Shown here one piece after another: positions 13,799-21,525 of a stretch of 39,973 nucleotides of DNA; position 1 is the stretch's first letter; the number at the start of each line of letters is the position of its first letter. This DNA is from Candidatus Brevefilum sp. (GTDB lineage Bacteria; Chloroflexota; Anaerolineae; Anaerolineales; Anaerolineaceae): the NCBI GenBank assembly GCA_019428905.1, contig JAHYJN010000023.1:1-39973 (forward strand), given 5' to 3'. The translations under genes were made by a program, and so were the position numbers. The notes under the pieces are model-generated. The model saw only the letters and a list, made by a program, of their open reading frames with translations. It was not told where the DNA came from and searched no databases.

Positions 13799-15130
13799 TC
13801 ATTCAGATTTAATTCGAGCAACCTGCTCTGCGATGCGGTTAGCCTGACTCCGAACCTCATCCTCATCCAAGGTCAACAATGCGCGATTCTTCATCAACAC
13901 CTGTCCTGCAACCATCACGTGGCGGATATCCCCAATCGAGAGGGCGTAGATCAGGTGCGAATAGAGGTCATAACAGGGTGTCAGGTTGGCTGAGCTGAAG
14001 TCAATCACGGCCAGATCGGCAAACTTTCCAACCTCCAGTGAGCCGATCACATCCGCTAAACCCACAGCCCGAGCGCCGTCAATCGTAAGCATTGAAAATA
14101 CCTTTTCTGCTGGCAGCACTTTGGGATCCCCAGTGACACCCTTCTGCATCAACGCTGCCAGCTGTGCTTCGTGGAACAGGTCAAGATCGTTATTGCTGGC
14201 TGCGCCGTCTGTGCCGATCCCCACATTGACACCCCTCTCAACCATCGCCGCCACCCGGGCAATCCCCGAGGACAATTTCAGGTTCGAGGATGGGCAATGC
14301 GCCACAGAGGTGCCGCTTTCAGCCAAACGCGCAATCTCGTCATCTGTTAGGTGCACGCAGTGAGCTAATAACGTGCGTTCTCCTAATAAACCAAACCCAT
14401 CCAATACTGCGATTGGACGTTTACCATGCTTCTGATGGACTTGCAGCAGTTCACCTTGAGACTCAGCCGCATGGGTCACAAACAGCAGACGCCGGTCGTG
14501 AGTTAAATTTGCCACATGTTCAAGCGTGGCTGGGCTGGTCATATAAGCTGAATGCGCCTGGATACATGGGTGCACCAGGTGAACATCTTGATAGTGGTCC
14601 AGGTATTCAACTGCGATGGCCTGGTTGGTATTGCGGTAGTTTTCAAACCCTTCAATTTCAGCAAAGCTGGGGCCGGTCACGATGCGAAAGCCAGCGGTTC
14701 GGGCAGCTTCTGTCGTTTCTTGGTAGTACCAGTACATATCGGCCGCGCAGGTGGTGCCAGCACGAAGCATTTCCACCATCGCCAGCTGTGAACCTGTCAC
14801 CACGGTGTCTTTGGAAATTAATGCCGCTTCAACCCGCCAGATCGTTTCCAGCCACTTTTCAAGCGTGCAGTCATCGACCAACCCCCGCACAAGGGTCATT
14901 GCCCAATGCCCATGAACATTAATCAAGCCCGGAATGACGACCATCCCATTTAACTCAAGAAGTTCTTTGGGTTTATAGGCCTGCAATCCCTCAGCTTCAG
15001 CGCCTATCCAAACGATCCTCCCTCCATCAACCGCCATGGCGGCATTTCGCAAGATGGATCGATCGGCATTCATGGTGACGATTGTTCCGCCAATCAACAG
15101 GGTATCTACGGGTGTGGGTGATGGTAACAT
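13799..15130 (-). CDS. mtaD: Amidohydrolase, 5-methylthioadenosine/S-adenosylhomocysteine deaminase type
   Basis: Metal-dependent deaminase of the amidohydrolase superfamily. The MtaD/SAH deaminase subgroup converts 5'-methylthioadenosine, SAH, adenosine or 5'-deoxyadenosine to the inosine forms, releasing ammonia in the cytoplasm. Likely zinc ligands are His73 and His75 in 'NVHGH', His220 in 'VTHAAES' and Asp308 in 'GTDGAASNNDLDLF'. Glu223 fits the catalytic acid, and His193 in 'IQAHSAYMTS' is also conserved. Length 443 is normal. The tail 'LGVGKFADL'-type strand (here 'LEVGKFADLAVIDF') is typical. It is the last gene of the ECF/salvage operon, after an intercistronic hairpin, and its product would be the substrate of the phosphorylase two genes upstream. 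Guanine deaminase or chlorohydrolase-like roles are less likely given the neighbours. Confidence 0.85.
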   Translation of the reverse strand: MLPSPTPVDTLLIGGTIVTMNADRSILRNAAMAVDGGRIVWIGAEAEGLQAYKPKELLELNGMVVIPGLINVHGHWAMTLVRGLVDDCTLEKWLETIWRVEAALISKDTVVTGSQLAMVEMLRAGTTCAADMYWYYQETTEAARTAGFRIVTGPSFAEIEGFENYRNTNQAIAVEYLDHYQDVHLVHPCIQAHSAYMTSPATLEHVANLTHDRRLLFVTHAAESQGELLQVHQKHGKRPIAVLDGFGLLGERTLLAHCVHLTDDEIARLAESGTSVAHCPSSNLKLSSGIARVAAMVERGVNVGIGTDGAASNNDLDLFHEAQLAALMQKGVTGDPKVLPAEKVFSMLTIDGARAVGLADVIGSLEVGKFADLAVIDFSSANLTPCYDLYSHLIYALSIGDIRHVMVAGQVLMKNRALLTLDEDEVRSQANRIAEQVARIKSE

Positions 15131-15154
15131 TTGAAATCCATCCTAATATAAAAC

Positions 15155-15182
15155 AGGTGAGTGGCTAAATGGCCACTCACCT
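15155..15182 (-). terminator. Hairpin between S-component and deaminase genes, possible partial terminator
   Basis: AGGTGAGTGGC (15155-15165) and GCCACTCACCT (15172-15182) form a perfect 11-bp stem with a 6-nt loop. On the minus strand it is followed by GTTTTATATT, a short T-rich tail. It lies 25 bp before the deaminase start, inside the operon, so it could lower downstream expression or protect the upstream mRNA 3' end. Confidence 0.6.
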
Positions 15183-15206
15183 TGTAATTCTGGTTGTTGA
15201 AAAGAC

Positions 15207-16043
15207 TTATGCTTCCGGTTCCTCAACAAATTGCTCTCGGCCAGATAACATGAAGCTCGCTAAGAGGATCAACAGCAAGAACGGGAGCACAGACAGCCAA
15301 ACCGCAACCTGTCCCTGCTGACCGGCAAATCCGTACAATTGCTGACCAGCAGCGCCAATGGCCACCAACACACCCACAATCAAACCACCCAGCGAACCGA
15401 TGATCATTAAAATTGAACCAATGGTCTTGGCAAAACCCTTAGCCACGTCCTCTTCCTGCATGATATCCGTCCAGATCAAACCCCACCGCTTAACCCGCGG
15501 GTAGAGCAAGACCAGCAAAATGGGACCCAAGATAAAAGCAGCCGCGAAGTTGTTGACGGTGATGGTGATTGAAAGGAAGGCAAAGGGAACAATTGCGACG
15601 ATGTCGAGATACCAGGCGATGATGATGCCGCAGGCTGCAGAGGAGACCAGGGCAACAAGTTCAAAAGCGAGGACCTTTTTCCAATTATTGGTTGTTTGGG
15701 CCATGTCATCCTTCGAGACCAGGCCAAAGGTGGCTCCCCACATTTTGTAGGGGATGAAGGCGAGGAAGAAGTTGCCAAAGAAACCAAAGATTGAACCAAT
15801 CCCTAATGTGCCGCCAAACAGGTCACCAATGAAGTTGCCAATTGCAGCGCCCCAAGCGCCGGCCGGGCCAAACAAAAGACCAAAAACAGGCGGGAACACA
15901 TTCGCAGGGCGTACTTCGGTGATACCAGGGACAATTGGAATACCGCCCTTAAAAACAATTAGAAACGCTGCATAAATTGCAGCAGAGAGCGCCACCAGGA
16001 TGATCATCCGGGTGTTCTTCCACATAGAAATAACTTCTTTCAT
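15207..16043 (-). CDS. ECF transporter S component (substrate-binding membrane subunit)
   Basis: Hydrophobic protein of 278 residues with about six membrane segments, similar to the QueT-like S-component group. The hallmark stretch is 'RPANVFPPVFGLLFGPAGAW' followed by 'GAAIGNFIGDLFGG', then 'GSIFGFFGNFFLAFIPYKMW'. S components give an ECF importer its substrate specificity and couple to the shared T and A subunits. The C-terminal tail carries extra membrane segments and ends in acidic residues. Translation starts at 16043 after AAGGAG. It is in the same gene run as the T and fused A subunits (18014-20496) but separated from them by the isomerase and phosphorylase genes. That interleaving suggests the substrate is a nucleoside or thiopentose handled by those enzymes. 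The substrate itself is not provable here. Confidence 0.85.
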   Translation of the reverse strand: MKEVISMWKNTRMIILVALSAAIYAAFLIVFKGGIPIVPGITEVRPANVFPPVFGLLFGPAGAWGAAIGNFIGDLFGGTLGIGSIFGFFGNFFLAFIPYKMWGATFGLVSKDDMAQTTNNWKKVLAFELVALVSSAACGIIIAWYLDIVAIVPFAFLSITITVNNFAAAFILGPILLVLLYPRVKRWGLIWTDIMQEEDVAKGFAKTIGSILMIIGSLGGLIVGVLVAIGAAGQQLYGFAGQQGQVAVWLSVLPFLLLILLASFMLSGREQFVEEPEA

Positions 16044-16156
16044 GATCGAATCTCCTTAATAAATGGGTTGGATAAATTGGATAAAGTTAATGGTCGTTTG
16101 GCAATATTCTTATCGGCAGCACCTCCTTTTAAACTTTCTAGTTCATCACGAATAAC

Positions 16157-16939
16157 CTAGGGCTGATTTTGCGGCTCATGCATCATCATCACAGCCTTTT
16201 CACAACCACAGTCGAAACCACTTGTTTCCTTAAGTGTATTAACCAACAGCAGGGCTAAAAGTTGCCTGAGTTCTGCCATCTGATCGCTGACGAACACCAT
16301 CTCTTGTTCCAATCCAGCGGCCCAATTAATGGAATAGGCCATTGAAGCATAGTGCATCCCCAATTCGCGCGCCAGAACCACTTCGGGTATGCCAGTCATA
16401 CCCACCACATCGCCCCCTAACTGGGCAAACATCCTGATTTCCGCTGGAGATTCAAAACGCGGTCCGTTCGTGGCTACATAAACTGCTTCTGGATGGATTT
16501 CAAGATTAAATTGTGGGGATAATTCGAGAACCTTCTTCCGCAGCACGGGGCAATAAGGCACATCCATGTTGGTATGCGCCAAACCAGAATTTCCACCATC
16601 GTAAAAGGTAAATGCCCGACCACTGGTAAAGTCCATGAAATCCGTTAATAATGCCAAACTCATCGGCGGTATCTCACGGCTGATCGAACCAACTGCATTG
16701 GTAGCCAAGATCTGTTTGACACCCAATAAATCCAACGCCCGTAAATTAGCCCGATAATTAATCATATGGGGTGGTGTCGTATGCTCTAAACCATGCCGTG
16801 CCAAAAAGACCAGTTCAAAATCGTCCTGCGTCCCAAGATTGACCAGCGCCTGACCATACTCAGTTTCCACAATTTTTTGAACAAACTTAAAACCGGGGAT
16901 AACATAAATGCCGGTGCCAGTGATGATCGCGGATTTCAT
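16157..16939 (-). CDS. MTAP/PNP family phosphorylase, possibly 5'-methylthioinosine phosphorylase
   Basis: Trimeric-type nucleoside phosphorylase (260 residues) that splits a nucleoside with phosphate into pentose-1-phosphate and purine. Family motifs are 'FLARHGLEHTTPPHMINYRA', 'ATNAVGSI', 'LLTDFMDFTSGR', 'VATNGPRFESPAEIRMF' and 'GGDVVGMTGIPEVVLAREL'. The base-recognition region reads 'AYSINWAAG' with Asn205. Adenine-specific MTAPs carry Asp here (TDYD), and 6-oxopurine enzymes such as PNP and methylthioinosine phosphorylase carry Asn. I therefore infer a methylthioinosine- or deoxyinosine-like substrate, fitting the deaminase in the same operon. The start is the ATG at 16939, about ten bases after TTGGAG. 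The C-terminus adds an odd 'FDCGCEKAVMMMHEP' tail. Confidence 0.87.
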   Translation of the reverse strand: MKSAIITGTGIYVIPGFKFVQKIVETEYGQALVNLGTQDDFELVFLARHGLEHTTPPHMINYRANLRALDLLGVKQILATNAVGSISREIPPMSLALLTDFMDFTSGRAFTFYDGGNSGLAHTNMDVPYCPVLRKKVLELSPQFNLEIHPEAVYVATNGPRFESPAEIRMFAQLGGDVVGMTGIPEVVLARELGMHYASMAYSINWAAGLEQEMVFVSDQMAELRQLLALLLVNTLKETSGFDCGCEKAVMMMHEPQNQP

Positions 16940-16962
16940 GCTGATTGTCTCCAATTAGTCCA

Positions 16963-18000
16963 TTATCCAAAATAACGCGCCAAGTCATACGGGCTTAAAA
17001 TCCCGTGCTGGGTGATGACGCCTGCCACAAAGTTGGGTGGGGTGATATCAAACGCCGGATAGTAGGCATCAATCTCCTGGGAGGTTGTGGGCACGCCGCG
17101 GCACATTTTGATCTCATCCGGGTTGCGCGCTTCAATTTCAATCGATTCCCGGTTGGGTTTATGTTTATCCGCTGCCTGTGTGAACACAAAATAAGGCACA
17201 CCGTGGTGGTGGGCAGCCAGTGCGTTTTGAAAAGTGCCAATCTTGTTGACCACATGCCCATCCAGGGTGATCAAGTCAGCAGCGGTGAAATATTTCTGGA
17301 TCTTTCCCTGAGAGATGACATGCGCCGGCATGTTATCCGTAATAATTTGTACGGGCACACCAATCTCGTGAATGCTGGGCGCTGTCAGGCGGGCACCCTG
17401 TAAATAGGGCCGGGTTTCGGGCGTGAACACATGCATCGCTTTACCCGATTTTTTAGCAATCGCTAAAGTCATTAACAGGGATGTCTCAGCAAAGCACATC
17501 GTCAAAATACCATCCCCATCTTCAATCAAGCTTGCGCCATACTCACCACATTTGAGGTGTTTTTCATAACTCAGGTCGCGGATTTTTTCAATCCAATCAA
17601 GCAGCGCCGCTTCAACATCCTGCCCCTGATCGAGGGCTTGATCGATAACCCCCATGGCATTTTCAAGGTGCCTGGCCATGCTGGTGTTGGTGGGGCGGGT
17701 TTTTATCAACCGAAGATTCGCCTTTTTAAATGCCTCACGTTGTTGGGCAGCCTTCCGGTTGGCAACCTGCCCAGCTAACATCGCCATGGCATATAGGGCA
17801 ACGTATTGTGGGCCACCGCCCTGGGTTACCATGTCCTCAATGGCACGTGCCGCACACTCAACATCCTGACAACGAAAGAACGTCTTTTCAAATGGATATT
17901 GACGCCGGTCACACATCACCACCTCACCGCCCTCATATCGGGCAACATTTTCTCGGCGCAACAAGAAAGGTAATAGGGCGTTTATTTCATTTAAATCCAT
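16963..18000 (-). CDS. MtnA/eIF2B-family isomerase (methylthioribose-1-phosphate isomerase-like)
   Basis: Member of the MtnA/eIF2B-alpha family, which isomerises 5-methylthioribose-1-phosphate (or 5-deoxyribose-1-phosphate) to the ribulose form. Recognisable motifs are 'TRPTNTSMARHLENAM' (RPTAVNL region), 'TPETRPYLQGARLTA' (near-perfect ETRPxxQGARLTA), 'AADLITLDGHVVNKIGTF' and 'YPAFDITPPNFVAGVITQHG'. The catalytic Cys is kept (Cys169) but its surroundings are divergent: 'ILTMCFAE' instead of the usual ILTHCNAG. Asp242 or Asp247 could be the catalytic acid. The start is the ATG at 18000, preceded by GGAGG. It lies between the ECF T component and the phosphorylase that would make its substrate. 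The divergent active site leaves room for a different pentose-1-phosphate. Confidence 0.85.
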   Translation of the reverse strand: MDLNEINALLPFLLRRENVARYEGGEVVMCDRRQYPFEKTFFRCQDVECAARAIEDMVTQGGGPQYVALYAMAMLAGQVANRKAAQQREAFKKANLRLIKTRPTNTSMARHLENAMGVIDQALDQGQDVEAALLDWIEKIRDLSYEKHLKCGEYGASLIEDGDGILTMCFAETSLLMTLAIAKKSGKAMHVFTPETRPYLQGARLTAPSIHEIGVPVQIITDNMPAHVISQGKIQKYFTAADLITLDGHVVNKIGTFQNALAAHHHGVPYFVFTQAADKHKPNRESIEIEARNPDEIKMCRGVPTTSQEIDAYYPAFDITPPNFVAGVITQHGILSPYDLARYFG

Positions 18001-18013
18001 CAATCCTCCAAGA

Positions 18014-18796
18014 TCAGAAGCGGATCAAACCCTCAATTTGACCGAAGCCCAAGATCGCGAAATAAATCGAAACCAACATAAACACGATCGAAAAAACCAG
18101 TACGAGATAATCCGCTCTACCCATTTCAAACACCAGGTAAAAAGTACGTTCCTCTTTCGCGCCAAACCCCTTCGATTCGAGCGCCATACCAAAAATATTT
18201 GTGTTGCGGATGGTTGAAAGGAAGACAGGAACCAGTAACGGTAGGAATTTTTTTATGCGCTGTAACAGGTTGCCCGATTCAAGGTCTAGACCACGGCTTC
18301 GCTGCGCCTGACTGATGGTGATGGTGCTTGAAACAATTGTAGGGACCAACCGTAAAGCGGTCGAAATTGCAAAGCCGACCCGGTAGGGCATCCCCAGCCG
18401 GATCATGCCGTTCACTAATTCCTCATTACGAGTGGAGGTGATCAAGATCATTCCAGCGGAGATCATCAGGATCATGAGCAGTGTGCGGGCGATTGCAAAG
18501 CTCATCGATTCAACAGATATCCGCCAAAATAATTGGGTCTCTCCAGTTGAGAACAAATTCCACAGAATCATACTGGAGACCGTTAACACAATCAAGATAT
18601 AGCGAATCCGGCGCAGATTAACCAAAGCGCCAGAGATGATCAACTGGGCGATAATCAGAACGGTAATCGGCAGCATCCACAGCGGATTCTGAAACAGGAG
18701 GATGGCGACGAAGGTCAGGAGAAAGATGATGATCTTTACACGTGGGTCCAAGCGGTGAATAAAGGAATTGTTATCAAGATAAATTTCAGCATCCAT
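18014..18796 (-). CDS. ecfT: ECF transporter T component (EcfT)
   Basis: Membrane coupling subunit of an energy-coupling factor importer, 260 residues with about five or six membrane spans. It begins with the typical 'SFIHRLDPRVKIIIFLLTFV'. The two cytoplasmic coupling motifs that dock into the ATPases are visible as 'QAQRSRGLDLE' (near residue 165) and 'MALESKGFGAKEER' (near residue 205). These correspond to the Ala-Arg-Gly signatures, with Ser or Lys changes. Its ATG shares one base with the stop of the fused ATPase gene (TGATG), so translation is coupled. Confidence 0.93.
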   Translation of the reverse strand: MDAEIYLDNNSFIHRLDPRVKIIIFLLTFVAILLFQNPLWMLPITVLIIAQLIISGALVNLRRIRYILIVLTVSSMILWNLFSTGETQLFWRISVESMSFAIARTLLMILMISAGMILITSTRNEELVNGMIRLGMPYRVGFAISTALRLVPTIVSSTITISQAQRSRGLDLESGNLLQRIKKFLPLLVPVFLSTIRNTNIFGMALESKGFGAKEERTFYLVFEMGRADYLVLVFSIVFMLVSIYFAILGFGQIEGLIRF

Positions 18797-20496
18797 CAGT
18801 CATGAACTCCTTCTAAACAAGCTATCATCTCCTCTGGGGTTAAAAAGGTATATCCCAGGCGATAGCTGAATTCAACAAAATGCGGTGGGCGCAAAAAAGC
18901 ATCTCTAAGGACATCTCCCTGGGAGAATACCTCGCGGGTTGTTCCTTCTAAAAGGATATCCCCATCTTTCATCACAAACGCACGTTTGGCATATTCAGCC
19001 ACAACCCACATGTGATGCGTGATAAAGATGATCGTGCTGCCATTCTCATTCAGCTTTTTGACCATGTTCATCATACTGCGCTGCTCGCGATAATCTAAAC
19101 CAGTGGTCGGTTCATCTAAAATTAACACATCCGGGTTCGATGCCAAAACTGCGGCCACTGCCACCCGTTGCCGGCCGCTCTTGGTCAGGGTAAACGGGTC
19201 CTCCTCTCCCTGCCCTGTCAGACCAACAGCTTCCAAAGCCTCAGCCACACATCGTTTAACGTCATCTTCGGAAAAATTTCGCAGGCGTGGACTGAAGGCA
19301 ACTTCGTCGAATACTTTTTCGGAGAAGATTTGGTGATCTGGGTTTTGAAACACGTAGCCCACACTCTGTCCGAGGGTGAATATCCCTTGGTCAACCGTTG
19401 GTTTGCCGTTCACATTCACCTCACCTGCCGTGGGCATCAGCAAACCGTTGAAATGTTTAGCGAGGGTTGTCTTTCCACTACCATTCTGGCCGATGATGGC
19501 GACCATCTCACCGCGGTGTATTTCCATGCTGACATCTTTCAGCGCCTTAACATCCCCCTTATAGGTATGCGAGAGATGCTTACATTCGATTAAGGGTGAG
19601 TGATGCACCTTCAAAGCAATCTGATCCTCGGCGATCATCTGCTGGTAAGCCTGATCATTGATCTTTAAATTCAACGTACCAAAAGCTTCCACGCCCTCAT
19701 CTGGCGTCAGCGGTAAATCTGGCACATGGACGGCTTTAAAAAACTTAGGGATACCTAAAGGCATCACACCTAAAGATTCGAGTAAATCAACATCACTTAA
19801 GATCTCCCGGGTTGGCCCAACTTTGATCAGATGCCCATCTTTGATTAATGCGATTCGATCAGCAAATAAGGCTTCTTCCGTTTCGTGCTCCACCATCAAC
19901 AGGCTCAGGTCATCGCGCTTGCAGAGGCGGTGGGTGATTTCAAATACGCCCATTTTGCTGATCGGGTCAAGGTCAGTTGTGGGCTCATCCATGACTAACA
20001 CTTCGGGCTTTAATGCTAAAACAGAAGCGATGGCTAGTTTTTGCTTCTGCCCACCTGAAAGTGTCGATGGAGGTCGGTTACGGTTTGCCTCCAACCCGAC
20101 ATATTTCAAGTTCTCGTCAATACGAATTTTGATTTCCTCTCGGGGAACAGCAAAGTTTTCAGGACCAAAGGCAATTTCCAATTCAACATTGGTTGAAAAC
20201 AGCTGGGCTTCAAAGTCTTGAAACACCATTCCCACGATCTCCGCCATTTGGGCGACAGTATACGCTTTCGTGTCCCGCCCCATGACGATCACTTCACCGG
20301 ACAATTTCCCGATATGAAAATGCGGGATCAGCCCATTGACGGTGGCAGCTAAGGTGCTTTTGCCTGCCTCACTGGGTCCCATCAACATTAAGAACTCACC
20401 ACGGTCGAGGGTTAAGTTAACCCCATCCAAGGCAAAGGTTTTTTGTCCGCGGTATCGATACTGAAGGTCACGAATAGAAACAACGGGTTCGCCCAC
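18796..20496 (-). CDS. ECF transporter fused ATPase (EcfA-EcfA')
   Basis: Two ABC ATPase domains in one 566-residue chain energise the ECF importer. Domain 1 has Walker A 'GPSEAGKST', signature 'LSGGQKQKLAIA' and Walker B 'VLVMDEPTTDLDP'. Domain 2 begins near residue 300 and has Walker A 'GQNGSGKTT', Q-loop 'YVFQNPDHQIFS' and Walker B 'VLILDEPTTGLDY', with the switch His in 'IFITHHM'. Its signature reads 'LTKSGRQRVAVA' instead of LSGGQ, so one of the two composite ATP sites may be altered; similar changes (LTKGERQ) are known in this subfamily. GTG start at 20496 with TTTGGAGG upstream. It is the first gene of the operon and follows a long leader with an attenuator-like terminator. Confidence 0.95.
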   Translation of the reverse strand: MGEPVVSIRDLQYRYRGQKTFALDGVNLTLDRGEFLMLMGPSEAGKSTLAATVNGLIPHFHIGKLSGEVIVMGRDTKAYTVAQMAEIVGMVFQDFEAQLFSTNVELEIAFGPENFAVPREEIKIRIDENLKYVGLEANRNRPPSTLSGGQKQKLAIASVLALKPEVLVMDEPTTDLDPISKMGVFEITHRLCKRDDLSLLMVEHETEEALFADRIALIKDGHLIKVGPTREILSDVDLLESLGVMPLGIPKFFKAVHVPDLPLTPDEGVEAFGTLNLKINDQAYQQMIAEDQIALKVHHSPLIECKHLSHTYKGDVKALKDVSMEIHRGEMVAIIGQNGSGKTTLAKHFNGLLMPTAGEVNVNGKPTVDQGIFTLGQSVGYVFQNPDHQIFSEKVFDEVAFSPRLRNFSEDDVKRCVAEALEAVGLTGQGEEDPFTLTKSGRQRVAVAAVLASNPDVLILDEPTTGLDYREQRSMMNMVKKLNENGSTIIFITHHMWVVAEYAKRAFVMKDGDILLEGTTREVFSQGDVLRDAFLRPPHFVEFSYRLGYTFLTPEEMIACLEGVHD

Positions 20497-20737
20497 ACAG
20501 CCTCCAAATCATAGAAACAACTCATTTAAAAAAACCTGCTTGAGAATGGAATTTCTCAAACAGCCTAACACTCAACCAATCGCAGACTGAGAAAAATAGC
20601 AGCCAAGCGTTGATTGATTTTGGACAAATCAAAAATAATGACATTAAAGTTGCCGACACTCTTTTGATTCATAAAAATATTTCTTAAACAAAATGACTGG
20701 ATAAAACCGATGAATGACCATCTGAACACAAAATGAC
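20497..20737 (-). promoter_or_regulatory. Long 5' leader of the ECF/salvage operon, candidate attenuator or riboswitch
   Basis: About 240 nt lie between a perfect -10 box and the EcfA start codon, without an ORF. GTCATTTTGT occurs twice on the minus strand (20691-20700 and 20728-20737 region), with further GTCATT copies. An intrinsic terminator (20528-20563) sits near the end. Upstream, UUUCUCA (plus-strand TGAGAAA, 20588-20594) is complementary to UGAGAAA in the terminator's 5' arm (20552-20558), giving a possible antiterminator. I recognise no known aptamer class. Confidence 0.5.
20528..20563 (-). terminator. Intrinsic terminator in the leader of the ECF operon
   Basis: On the minus strand CTGTTTGAGAA and TTCTCAAGCAG form an 11-bp stem (one G-U pair) with loop ATTCCA, and seven U residues follow after a single spacer base. 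It is 32 bases upstream of the EcfA start and about 170 nt after a likely promoter. It is better explained as an attenuator than as the end of the aldolase transcript 260 nt upstream, though both could use it. Confidence 0.75.
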
Positions 20738-20743
20738 AAGCCA

Positions 20744-20749
20744 ATTATA
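20744..20749 (-). promoter_or_regulatory. -10 element of the probable ECF operon promoter
   Basis: A perfect TATAAT lies on the minus strand between the aldolase stop and the long leader. No good -35 is visible at 16-18 nt, so an activator or another sigma factor may be needed. The spacing places a start site near 20737. Confidence 0.45.
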
Positions 20750-20822
20750 ACGTAATTTTTCGAGCAGATTTCTAGAAAAAAAACATGAATCCAGGTTTAT
20801 CACCACGATCCCAAATCAGGTC

Positions 20823-21482
20823 TTAATTCTTTTTCCCAGGTTGATCGCCATAACCGACAGATCGATCAATGACTTCCTGGATTTCAGCCTCGCTGAGCTG
20901 CACTGGCGTCCCCACGGATTTTGTGATCACGTAGACCTTGGCCACATATTCCACCAATTCAGCTGTATTGAACGCTTTCCTCAGGTTGGCGCCCACAGTG
21001 ACCAGGCCGTGATTGGCCATCAACACCGCGTTACCGCTCCCGATCACCCGGCAGATGTTATCTGCCAGTGCCTGGGTGCCAAAAGTCGCATACGGCGCTA
21101 ATGGGACCACGCTGCCAGCGCTCCCAATCAGGTAATGCACAGCCGGGAGTTCCCAACGCAAGCAGGCCAACGCGGTCGCATGTTCGGAATGGGTATGGAC
21201 CACAGCTTTAATGTCCGGCCGCTGTTTGATCAAGGCTAGGTGAAAGGCCATTTCAGATGAGGGCTTGAGCTGCCCATCAACGCGGTTGCCTTCCAGATCC
21301 ACAACCACCACATCTTCTGGGGTAAGCGTTTCATAAGGCACTCCTGAGGGGGTGATAGCCAGTAAGGTTTTCTCAGGGTTTGCCAGGCTGATATTACCAC
21401 CTGTGCCCTTGACCAACCCGGATGTGATCAGTTTCTTGCCGTATTCAGCGACCGCTTGTCGTTCATCTAAAAGGAGCATCAT
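20823..21482 (-). CDS. Class II aldolase (fuculose-1-phosphate aldolase family), candidate methylthio/deoxyribulose-1-phosphate aldolase
   Basis: Zinc-dependent aldolase of the AraD/FucA family, 219 residues. Metal and catalytic residues are visible: His96 and His98 in 'VVHTHSEHATA', His158 in 'MANHGLV' and Glu77 in 'KPSSEMAFHLAL'. The phosphate-binding 'GTGGNIS' and 'TPSGVPYE' are present. FucA enzymes split ketose-1-phosphates to dihydroxyacetone phosphate and an aldehyde. In the DHAP shunt the homologue acts on 5-deoxy- or 5-methylthio-ribulose-1-phosphate, exactly the expected product of the MtnA-like isomerase encoded downstream. No fucose or rhamnose genes are nearby, which favours that role. 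The start is uncertain: ATGs at 21482 and 21479, or TTG at 21491. It has its own -10 box at 21526. Confidence 0.85.
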   Translation of the reverse strand: MMLLLDERQAVAEYGKKLITSGLVKGTGGNISLANPEKTLLAITPSGVPYETLTPEDVVVVDLEGNRVDGQLKPSSEMAFHLALIKQRPDIKAVVHTHSEHATALACLRWELPAVHYLIGSAGSVVPLAPYATFGTQALADNICRVIGSGNAVLMANHGLVTVGANLRKAFNTAELVEYVAKVYVITKSVGTPVQLSEAEIQEVIDRSVGYGDQPGKKN

Positions 21483-21525
21483 CTCTTCCAATTCTTGTGC
21501 TTCACGCGCGATTTGATCAGGAATG

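Follow-up and report, generated by a model that had tools for sequence, protein, structure and literature searches.

Positions 13799-21482 of the window (the whole 39,973-nt stretch of DNA analysed here) encode an ECF transporter together with putative nucleoside-degrading enzymes, raising the question of what such a cluster takes up and breaks down. We lean slightly towards an answer in which it imports and degrades a 5'-modified adenine nucleoside, likeliest 5'-methylthioadenosine (MTA) and/or 5'-deoxyadenosine. Gene content, gene order, conservation, sequence signatures and the clade of the isomerase form the basis of this reading, and from them we infer the substrate, the transport, the reactions and the joint expression of the genes.

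Layout of the cluster and its leader

The features are as follows, in the direction of transcription:

20823..21482, minus strand: class II aldolase (PF00596, 198.6 bits; NF005302, 265.7, cut-off 264; nearest solved relative DrdA, 6btd)
20497..20822, minus strand: leader of ecfAA (a TATAAT precedes the start codon by 253 bases; a terminator-like hairpin occupies 20563-20536)
18796..20496, minus strand: fused double ECF ATPase, EcfA-EcfA' (PF00005, ABC_tran, in two stretches; TIGR04520, 457.6, cut-off 315)
18014..18796, minus strand: ECF T component, CbiQ family (PF02361, 100.9 bits)
16963..18003, minus strand: short-loop MtnA-like sugar-1-phosphate isomerase (PF01008, IF-2B/MtnA, 179.5 bits; Cys170 and Asp243 retained)
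16157..16954, minus strand: methylthioinosine-phosphorylase (MTIP)-like nucleoside phosphorylase (PNP_UDP_1, 121 bits; best PDB match 3ozb; N-x-A motif)
15207..16043, minus strand: ECF S component, QueT family (PF06177, 66 bits, cut-off 33.7)
15155..15182, minus strand: terminator-like 11-pair hairpin with a T tract in the S-deaminase gap (hairpin search)
13799..15130, minus strand: adenine-nucleoside deaminase of the MTA/SAH/5'-deoxyadenosine type, an MtaD-like amidohydrolase (PF01979, Amidohydro_1, 233.5 bits)

The minus-strand run and the gene names proposed in the first-pass annotation were borne out, all seven reading frames being present by their ORF coordinates and placed by Pfam and NCBIfam; two ECF ATPases, T and S are encoded together, as expected of an ECF transporter. 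The very short gaps described among the first genes were also recovered, as ecfAA and the T gene overlap by 1 base and are followed by gaps of 10 bases (T-isomerase) and 8 bases (isomerase-phosphorylase), ahead of 113 bases (phosphorylase-S) and 76 bases (S-deaminase). The aldolase had been placed directly upstream; it does lie upstream on the minus strand, but 326 bases separate its end from ecfAA, and we therefore treat it as adjacent to the run, not as closely packed within it. Alignments with several homologues begin at residue 5 of the aldolase ORF, so translation probably starts at the ATG at 21479 or that at 21482, not at the TTG at 21491.

A TATAAT lies 237-256 bases before ecfAA in 5/5 same-genus loci compared, window included. 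Alignment of the five leaders as RNA yielded the terminator hairpin alone, with both-sided changes in 3 of its 13 pairs; terminator-like sites are about as frequent in the stretch (10) as in shuffles (mean 8.7). A riboswitch in the leader was rejected, as Rfam at the gathering threshold returned rRNA only and the leader's single hit, on the opposite strand, stayed below threshold. Leader peptides were likewise rejected, the frames spotted by eye being ordinary against shuffled sequence (59 to 214 of 500 shuffles had frames as long).

Signatures of the enzymes and the S component

The best PDB match of the deaminase is 4f0r, named as an MTA/SAH deaminase (E value 3.3e-90), followed by 4dyk and 4gbd, listed without a deaminase name. 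An H-x-H, H, H and D, which we take to be the metal ligands, align by eye with those of solved relatives. The protein scored below the models for 5'-deoxyadenosine deaminase (PRK07228, 346.3 of 522) and MTA/SAH deaminase (PRK15493, 269.2 of 779), and no cut-off was reached among the best 25 of its 51 matches to curated models.

For the phosphorylase, the Pseudomonas aeruginosa MTIP structure (PaMTIP, 3ozb) was the best match among 57 PDB sequences compared. The score against the MTIP model NF006599 fell just below its cut-off (217.2 vs 223 bits), hence the name MTIP-like rather than MTIP, and that against the MTAP model TIGR01694 was also below cut-off (218.1 vs 274.85 bits). In alignment, its residues follow the P. 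aeruginosa MTIP pattern, unlike MTAP or PNP: the window protein has N-W-A where MTAP has Asp-x-Asp, a difference whose meaning presumably concerns the base. Across the cluster phosphorylases, the Asn of INWAAG is present in 32/32 and the Ala two positions further on in 29/32, the Asp pair being absent; all 32 carry AVG, as does PaMTIP, whereas both MTAPs compared have ACG and both PNPs AAG; and the PNP-type His is missing from 30, with a His near the PNP position in the other two. This MTIP-type signature agrees with the deaminate-first pattern claimed in the first-pass annotation.

The isomerase exceeds the cut-offs of subfamily models (PRK05720, 276.4 vs 271; TIGR00524, 209.6 vs 185.85) and falls below those of equivalog models (TIGR00512, 206.3 vs 279; NF004436 and NF004700 were also missed). 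Foldseek searches with its predicted structure returned MtnA first (2yvk, TM score 0.88). With Thermotoga maritima and Bacillus subtilis MtnA as references, it lacks the canonical marks RGAPA, CN[AT]G, the long loop and GADR, and in the tree the short-loop isomerases, the window protein included, are split from canonical MtnA by a branch with support of 100/99. We reject canonical methionine salvage via MtnA for this isomerase on its motifs and tree position. When rows from a plasmid collection were included, the short-loop side also contained an isomerase from Lactobacillus intestinalis whose gene is annotated with mtnK on one side and a fuculose-phosphate aldolase on the other; the window isomerase, grouped with that of this annotated mtnK-isomerase-aldolase cluster, is a candidate DrdI-like enzyme. 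The short loop and an R to Q change would provide a sequence mark that sets these isomerases apart from canonical methionine-salvage MtnA. Both classes are named alike by family models and in one record.

Among 31 PDB sequences, the aldolase best matches 6btd (E value 3.3e-63), which is DrdA, a 5-deoxyribulose-1-phosphate aldolase, according to the accessible text of PMC6079011. Its runner-up model is NF053831, ribulose-1-phosphate aldolase (199, cut-off 300). Together, the DrdA-nearest aldolase and the motifs and clade of the isomerase bear out the likeness to the DHAP shunt that had been noted for this locus.

The S component is predicted to be all-helical (mean pLDDT 89.6), and the first PDB matches of its model in Foldseek are the S components ThiT and RibU, at weak scores (E values of at least 0.13, TM score about 0.4 by query length). 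According to the accessible literature, the cargo of QueT/QrtT transporters consists of purine-like bases, with the nucleoside queuosine as cargo in one instance.

Conservation across related loci

We counted linkage on the strand of the S gene within each locus, using only loci with sufficient flank, among 31 related loci overall. The S component is accompanied by the phosphorylase in 29/31, the isomerase in 27/30, the fused ATPase in 26/26, T in 27/27 and the deaminase in 23/27 (it is absent from L037, L041 and L050); enzymes are absent from the stretches examined of L060, whose contig ends after S, and L064. The order AA-T-isomerase-phosphorylase-S-deaminase is repeated in related genomes and is therefore not a chance arrangement. 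A same-strand aldolase is found in 13/22 loci, at varying positions and from differing subfamilies (those of L053 and L059 exceed the cut-off of the RhaD model NF002963); it is distant in two of the 13 (L045, 7.6 kb; L050, 8.8 kb and 26 % identity), and the remaining 9/22 have none on the S strand.

By record title, 29/31 records are Chloroflexota. The linkage of S component and enzymes, which the first-pass annotation had left to comparison across relatives, thus holds in this close set, but not in S relatives at 45-54 % identity (L066-L070 from other phyla, L134 and L135 from Chloroflexota), which have ECF ATPases and no enzymes in the stretches examined; the S family alone is therefore not predictive of the pathway.

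Other neighbours recur. The same gene family lies immediately upstream of ecfAA in 13/40 loci, and the single member scanned is an RpiR/SIS-type regulator; SIS regulators commonly sense sugar phosphates. A Cys/Met PLP enzyme adjoins S or the deaminase in 3/40 loci, and two of these three, scanned against NCBIfam, were nearest to methionine gamma-lyase models at scores below cut-off, a hint of methylthio chemistry.

Proposed pathway, alternatives and known systems

In the pathway that we favour, a 5'-modified adenine nucleoside would be taken up by the dedicated ECF transporter and deaminated to its inosine form by the MtaD-like enzyme. Phosphorolysis by the MTIP-like enzyme would release hypoxanthine and leave 5-(methylthio/deoxy)ribose-1-phosphate to be converted by the DrdI-like isomerase to the ribulose-1-phosphate form, which the class II aldolase would cleave to DHAP and methylthioacetaldehyde or acetaldehyde. 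We find support for this likely order of steps, which had been proposed from the first reading of the locus. As an MTAP, a canonical MtnA and a PNP-like protein are encoded elsewhere in the genome, the cluster would be a second route and looks specialised; the same MTAP means that deamination of MTA as a first step is not needed, which counts against our reading. Further points against a 5'-modified nucleoside are the missed cut-offs of the MTIP and deaminase models and the true PNP of a sister operon in G031, from the same family, where deaminase, isomerase and aldolase of the kinds found here stand beside a BMP-type importer. The two cluster phosphorylases with a His near the PNP position, and the S relatives and loci above that lack the enzymes, the deaminase or a nearby aldolase, weigh on the same side.

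Because that operon pairs these enzymes with a true PNP, ordinary nucleosides may be handled on the same principle, and a serious, if rather unlikely, rival is that the window cluster itself imports adenosine or inosine, converting it via hypoxanthine release, ribose-1-phosphate and ribulose-1-phosphate to DHAP and glycolaldehyde, the short-loop isomerase acting as a ribose-1-phosphate isomerase. The runner-up model of the aldolase fits this, as does the isomerase of G077 (L105), which by eye adjoins a 245-aa ORF of uridine-phosphorylase type and a 342-aa ORF resembling a nucleoside hydrolase; halophilic archaea are known to cleave ribulose-1-phosphate to DHAP and glycolaldehyde. However, the residues of the window phosphorylase are of the MTIP type and do not include the PNP His, and the genome already has its PNP-like gene elsewhere. 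We consider it improbable that the goal is purine scavenging, with hypoxanthine drawn from the imported nucleoside and a sugar branch that merely removes leftover pentose phosphate: phosphorylase and deaminase are tied more closely to S than the aldolase is, but the isomerase is kept too, and the regulator family upstream of ecfAA speaks for the sugar. Least probable to us is a transporter for other cargo, e.g. a 7-deazapurine as in the QueT role, that shares no more than its regulation with an endogenous disposal pathway. Pfam does place the S component in QueT, and its distant relatives lack the enzymes; yet in most loci of the set the isomerase and phosphorylase genes separate T from S, and one substrate fits this better than two.

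The import and degradation of a 5'-modified nucleoside would join known parts, and the cluster is a new combination of parts each known already. The DHAP shunt, or 5-deoxyribose disposal (drdKIA, mtnK-mtnA-ald2), likewise uses an isomerase and then a class II aldolase to give DHAP and an aldehyde; the window aldolase is nearest DrdA among solved structures and the isomerase falls on the tree side of one such cluster. As described in the accessible texts, the shunt starts with a kinase or MTA phosphorylase and has linked sugar transporters or an unnamed permease, with no deamination and no ECF importer. The phosphorylase and deaminase families are related to those of deaminate-first salvage in P. 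aeruginosa and of the 5'-deoxyadenosine deaminase and MtiP of Methanocaldococcus jannaschii. In such salvage, MTA is converted to MTI, and phosphorolysis then frees hypoxanthine (PMC6302742, accessible text), whereas neither an importer nor a DHAP-yielding step appears in the accessible descriptions of these two systems. The halophilic archaeal non-carboxylating pentose bisphosphate pathway also leads from nucleoside to ribulose-1-phosphate and on to DHAP and an aldehyde, but, in the text available, passes through ribose-1,5-bisphosphate and uses a kinase as well as a phosphatase, both absent from the seven window genes.

MtaTUV was reportedly predicted as an ECF system by Rodionov in 2009. 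MtaT is listed in 'The Methylthioadenosine (MTA) Family', an MTA uptake family (TCDB 3.A.1.33; PMC3654945, accessible text), of which the window S component is a candidate member. Beyond the family name in PMC3654945, the part of the literature searched, which also included the accessible text of PMC12632272, PMC10986504, PMC11130926, PMC10418091, PMC3885546 and PMC9700705, yielded no paper linking an ECF transporter to the breakdown of MTA or 5'-deoxyadenosine. The arrangement had been put forward as new; with deaminate-first MTA salvage, the DHAP shunt with linked transporters and an MTA uptake family with MtaT in print, its novelty is smaller. If our reading is true, the uptake half of 5'-deoxynucleoside salvage is now identified in Anaerolineae, and an ECF S component of the QueT family acquires a substrate class.

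More tentatively, Chloroflexota may possess an exchangeable module of importer, deaminase, phosphorylase, short-loop isomerase and DHAP aldolase, combined with unrelated importers (ECF/QueT-type, BMP-type ABC or NMT1/THI5-type ABC) and with phosphorylases of either the MTIP-like or the PNP type; among its short-loop isomerases would be one that converts ribose-1-phosphate directly to ribulose-1-phosphate. The NMT1/THI5-type importer is that of G094, in which an aldolase was not observed. Such a module would turn both ordinary and 5'-modified nucleosides into DHAP and an aldehyde in bacteria, bypassing the pentose phosphate pathway. The cluster is testable, since a named strain, Thermanaerothrix daxensis GNS-1, carries a version of it (L062).

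Organization of the cluster and of its leader

The window is one contig (C114) of a 3.04-Mb genome in 149 contigs. The run of ECF transporter genes and salvage enzymes proposed for its minus strand in the first-pass annotation was confirmed, with all seven genes found between 21482 and 13799, starting with a class II aldolase and ending with an MtaD-like deaminase. The very short gaps claimed for the first genes also held (≤10 bases between the ATPases, T component, isomerase and phosphorylase). The aldolase, described as directly upstream, is upstream on the minus strand, but 326 bases separate it from the ATPases, so that it counts as adjacent to the run and not as a closely packed part of it.

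Features of the cluster and leader, in gene order
First, minus strand: class II aldolase, ending 326 bases upstream of the ECF ATPases
20497–20822: ecfAA leader, with TATAAT, a poorly conserved stretch, a terminator-like hairpin and then a ribosome-binding site
Second, minus strand: fused pair of ECF ATPases (ecfAA)
Third, minus strand: ECF T component
Fourth, minus strand: MtnA-like isomerase
Fifth, minus strand: nucleoside phosphorylase
Sixth, minus strand: QueT-family ECF S component, after a 113-base gap
15155–15182: terminator-like hairpin (11 pairs, T tract), in the short S–deaminase gap
Seventh, minus strand: MtaD-like deaminase, after a 76-base gap

The hairpin at 15155–15182 could uncouple the deaminase. 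Within the genus of the window, TATAAT lies 237–256 bases 5′ of ecfAA in all five loci compared; two of the leader hairpins in this genus were found by script, the others by eye or by alignment. A gene family directly upstream of the ATPases in 13 of 40 clustered loci (the one member scanned is an RpiR/SIS regulator) was absent from all four loci of this genus in that set (L020–L023); where it occurs, the family takes the place of the leader, which may represent a switch of control mode. At the contig edge (39517–39973, minus strand) lie a 5S rRNA and the 3′ end of a large-subunit rRNA.

Phosphorylase, isomerase and aldolase

The best solved relative of the window phosphorylase is 3ozb (listed as a methylthioadenosine phosphorylase; we take it to be the P. 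aeruginosa methylthioinosine phosphorylase, MTIP), ahead of human MTAP. We aligned 32 cluster phosphorylases with 3ozb, human MTAP, the MTAP and PNP-like protein of the window genome and a PNP of genome G031, which has a sister operon. All 32 carry the Asn of INWAAG at the Asp position of MTAP and AVG as in 3ozb (MTAPs, ACG; PNPs, AAG), and the second MTAP Asp is replaced throughout, by Ala in 29 rows and by Gly or Cys in the other 3. The His common to both PNPs is missing in 30/32, with one close to that position in L025 and L026. These positions presumably select 6-oxo versus 6-amino purines and 5′-hydroxyl versus 5′-modified sugars. The curated MTIP model was just missed (217.2 versus a cut-off of 223).

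The isomerase keeps the family Cys and Asp (invariant in 23/23 rows). In P. horikoshii ribose-1,5-bisphosphate isomerase the equivalent residues are C135 and D204, two positions whose mutants appear in PDB titles. It belongs to a short-loop class in which all 44 rows have Q replacing the R of RGAP and C plus F, I or Y instead of CN; a loop of ~7 residues, present in 20/20 canonical MtnA rows, occurs in 0/44. In a tree of 65 rows (63 different), a branch supported at 100/99 sets this class apart, and the split was found again in a 53-row tree; the row for ribose-1,5-bisphosphate isomerase sits on a very long branch, which makes its placement unsure. A Lactobacillus intestinalis isomerase whose annotated neighbours are mtnK on one side and a fuculose-phosphate aldolase on the other falls on the short-loop side; this layout is the same as that of the 5-deoxyribose disposal cluster. 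According to PMC6079011, the kinases and isomerases that Bacillus has in such clusters fall into clades separate from the methionine salvage enzymes. Family models gave a mixed answer for the window isomerase, which reached two MtnA subfamily models and missed the equivalogs. Judged by sequence, it is likely identical in kind to DrdI, the isomerase of the DHAP shunt.

Four genomes of Chloroflexota family f46 (L109–L112) form their own short-loop branch, with CYPG instead of CFAE; a deaminase-like ORF is nearby in three of the four fetched loci, and ECF genes were not seen in these four.

For the aldolase, the best solved relative is 6btd, deposited as DrdA (5-deoxyribulose-1-phosphate aldolase). 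Among the 22 loci that extend ≥5 kb upstream and ≥2.5 kb downstream of S, 13 hold a same-strand aldolase, within 6 kb in 11 of the 13 (L045 at 7.6 kb; L050 at 8.8 kb and with only 26 % identity). These operon-linked aldolases span different subfamilies: L057 reaches NF005302, like the window aldolase; L053 (219.4) and L059 (196.6) pass the cut-off of 170 of NF002963, a model for rhamnulose-1-phosphate aldolase, and fall below TIGR02624; the class II aldolases of L047 and L061 stay below every cut-off among the models shown. As the window genome has five PF00596 matches, a chance aldolase beside the operon should be rare, and the repeated recruitment of such enzymes argues for aldol cleavage as the last step.

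Conservation of the S component with the enzymes

Scanning species genomes for the S component gave 38 loci, of which 31 (L035–L065, S at 66–94 % identity) were counted; a gene scored when it lay on the S strand at any position of a locus with enough flank. The conservation of S with the enzymes was borne out here for the phosphorylase (29/31), isomerase (27/30) and deaminase (23/27), together with the ATPases (26/26) and T component (27/27), several loci being close kin and the counts thus not independent. By record title, 29/31 are Chloroflexota; enzymes were not seen in L060 (labelled Syntrophobacterales; the locus stops right after S) and L064 (labelled Pseudomonadota). In L061 and L062 (Thermanaerothrix daxensis and kin), the isomerase lies downstream, adjoining an aldolase. 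L036 shows overlapping ORFs at the deaminase.

Conservation did not extend to distant S relatives. L066–L070 (S at 45–51 %; Elusimicrobia, WOR-3, Calescamantes, Poribacteria and FCPU426) have ECF ATPases and no enzymes within the stretches examined (L069, 3.7 kb; L070, 9.8 kb), and the stretch examined in L071 has neither. Ten neighbour proteins of L066–L068, L070 and L071 match unrelated Pfam families (8) or none (2). An S alignment search of 400 Chloroflexota genomes gave nine matches at E 1e-12; apart from the window genome and G239, the seven others, including G215 and G247 (S at 52–54 %), have no enzymes in the stretches examined (G423, 3.4 kb only). Because S relatives at 45–54 % lack the enzymes in these stretches, the pairing is a trait of a single S-family branch.

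Substrates, precedents and parallel routes

We favour, by a small degree, a pathway for 5′-modified substrates in which the ECF complex would import a 5′-modified adenine nucleoside, followed by its putative deamination, phosphorolysis releasing hypoxanthine, isomerization of the sugar phosphate and aldol cleavage to DHAP plus an aldehyde. That the substrate is ordinary adenosine or inosine seems less likely but is a serious rival; in its favour, much the same enzyme chain occurs with three importer kinds, which supports the pathway logic yet keeps ordinary nucleosides in play. At L106 (7139–15811), in a single-contig genome belonging to the same family, one run combines a BMP-type importer with a PNP, a deaminase, a short-loop isomerase and a class II aldolase, a candidate bacterial route from ribose-1-phosphate to ribulose-1-phosphate. 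In G094 (L104, 2–8763), an NMT1/THI5-type ABC importer adjoins ORFs resembling a phosphorylase (27 % identity) and a deaminase (35 %), together with a short-loop isomerase (48 %); no aldolase was seen in that stretch. A Cys/Met PLP enzyme stands beside S or the deaminase in 3/40 clustered loci; the two scanned against NCBIfam were nearest methionine gamma-lyase, below cut-off, a hint of methylthio chemistry from a small count.

The arrangement had been put forward as new. Among the literature matches listed, none reports deaminate-first salvage, the DHAP shunt and an MTA importer in one operon, but each part is already in print: deaminate-first salvage of MTA by P. aeruginosa, along with the promiscuous MtiP from M. 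jannaschii (reviewed in PMC6302742), the DHAP shunt with linked transporters (PMC6079011, PMC12632272) and an MTA uptake family with MtaT (listed in PMC3654945). The cluster is a variation on known systems, not categorically new, and is worth testing.

Nor is it the only possible MTA route in the cell, since the genome also encodes a canonical MtnA followed directly by a PfkB-like kinase (contig C117; L019, 3077–5097), a canonical MTAP (contig C22; TIGR01694, 306.5 > 274.85; Asp-x-Asp motif) and, also on C22, a PF01048 gene classed by eye as PNP-like. The best models for the kinase include nucleoside and ribose-1-phosphate kinases, all far below cut-off. Another ECF–kinase pairing was seen in G180 (L139, 6318–10662), where a distant S relative (30 %), two ECF ATPases and a T component accompany a kinase 37 % identical to that of C117. 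Finally, an SDR-type gene is present in 6/40 clustered loci, directly before the isomerase in three.
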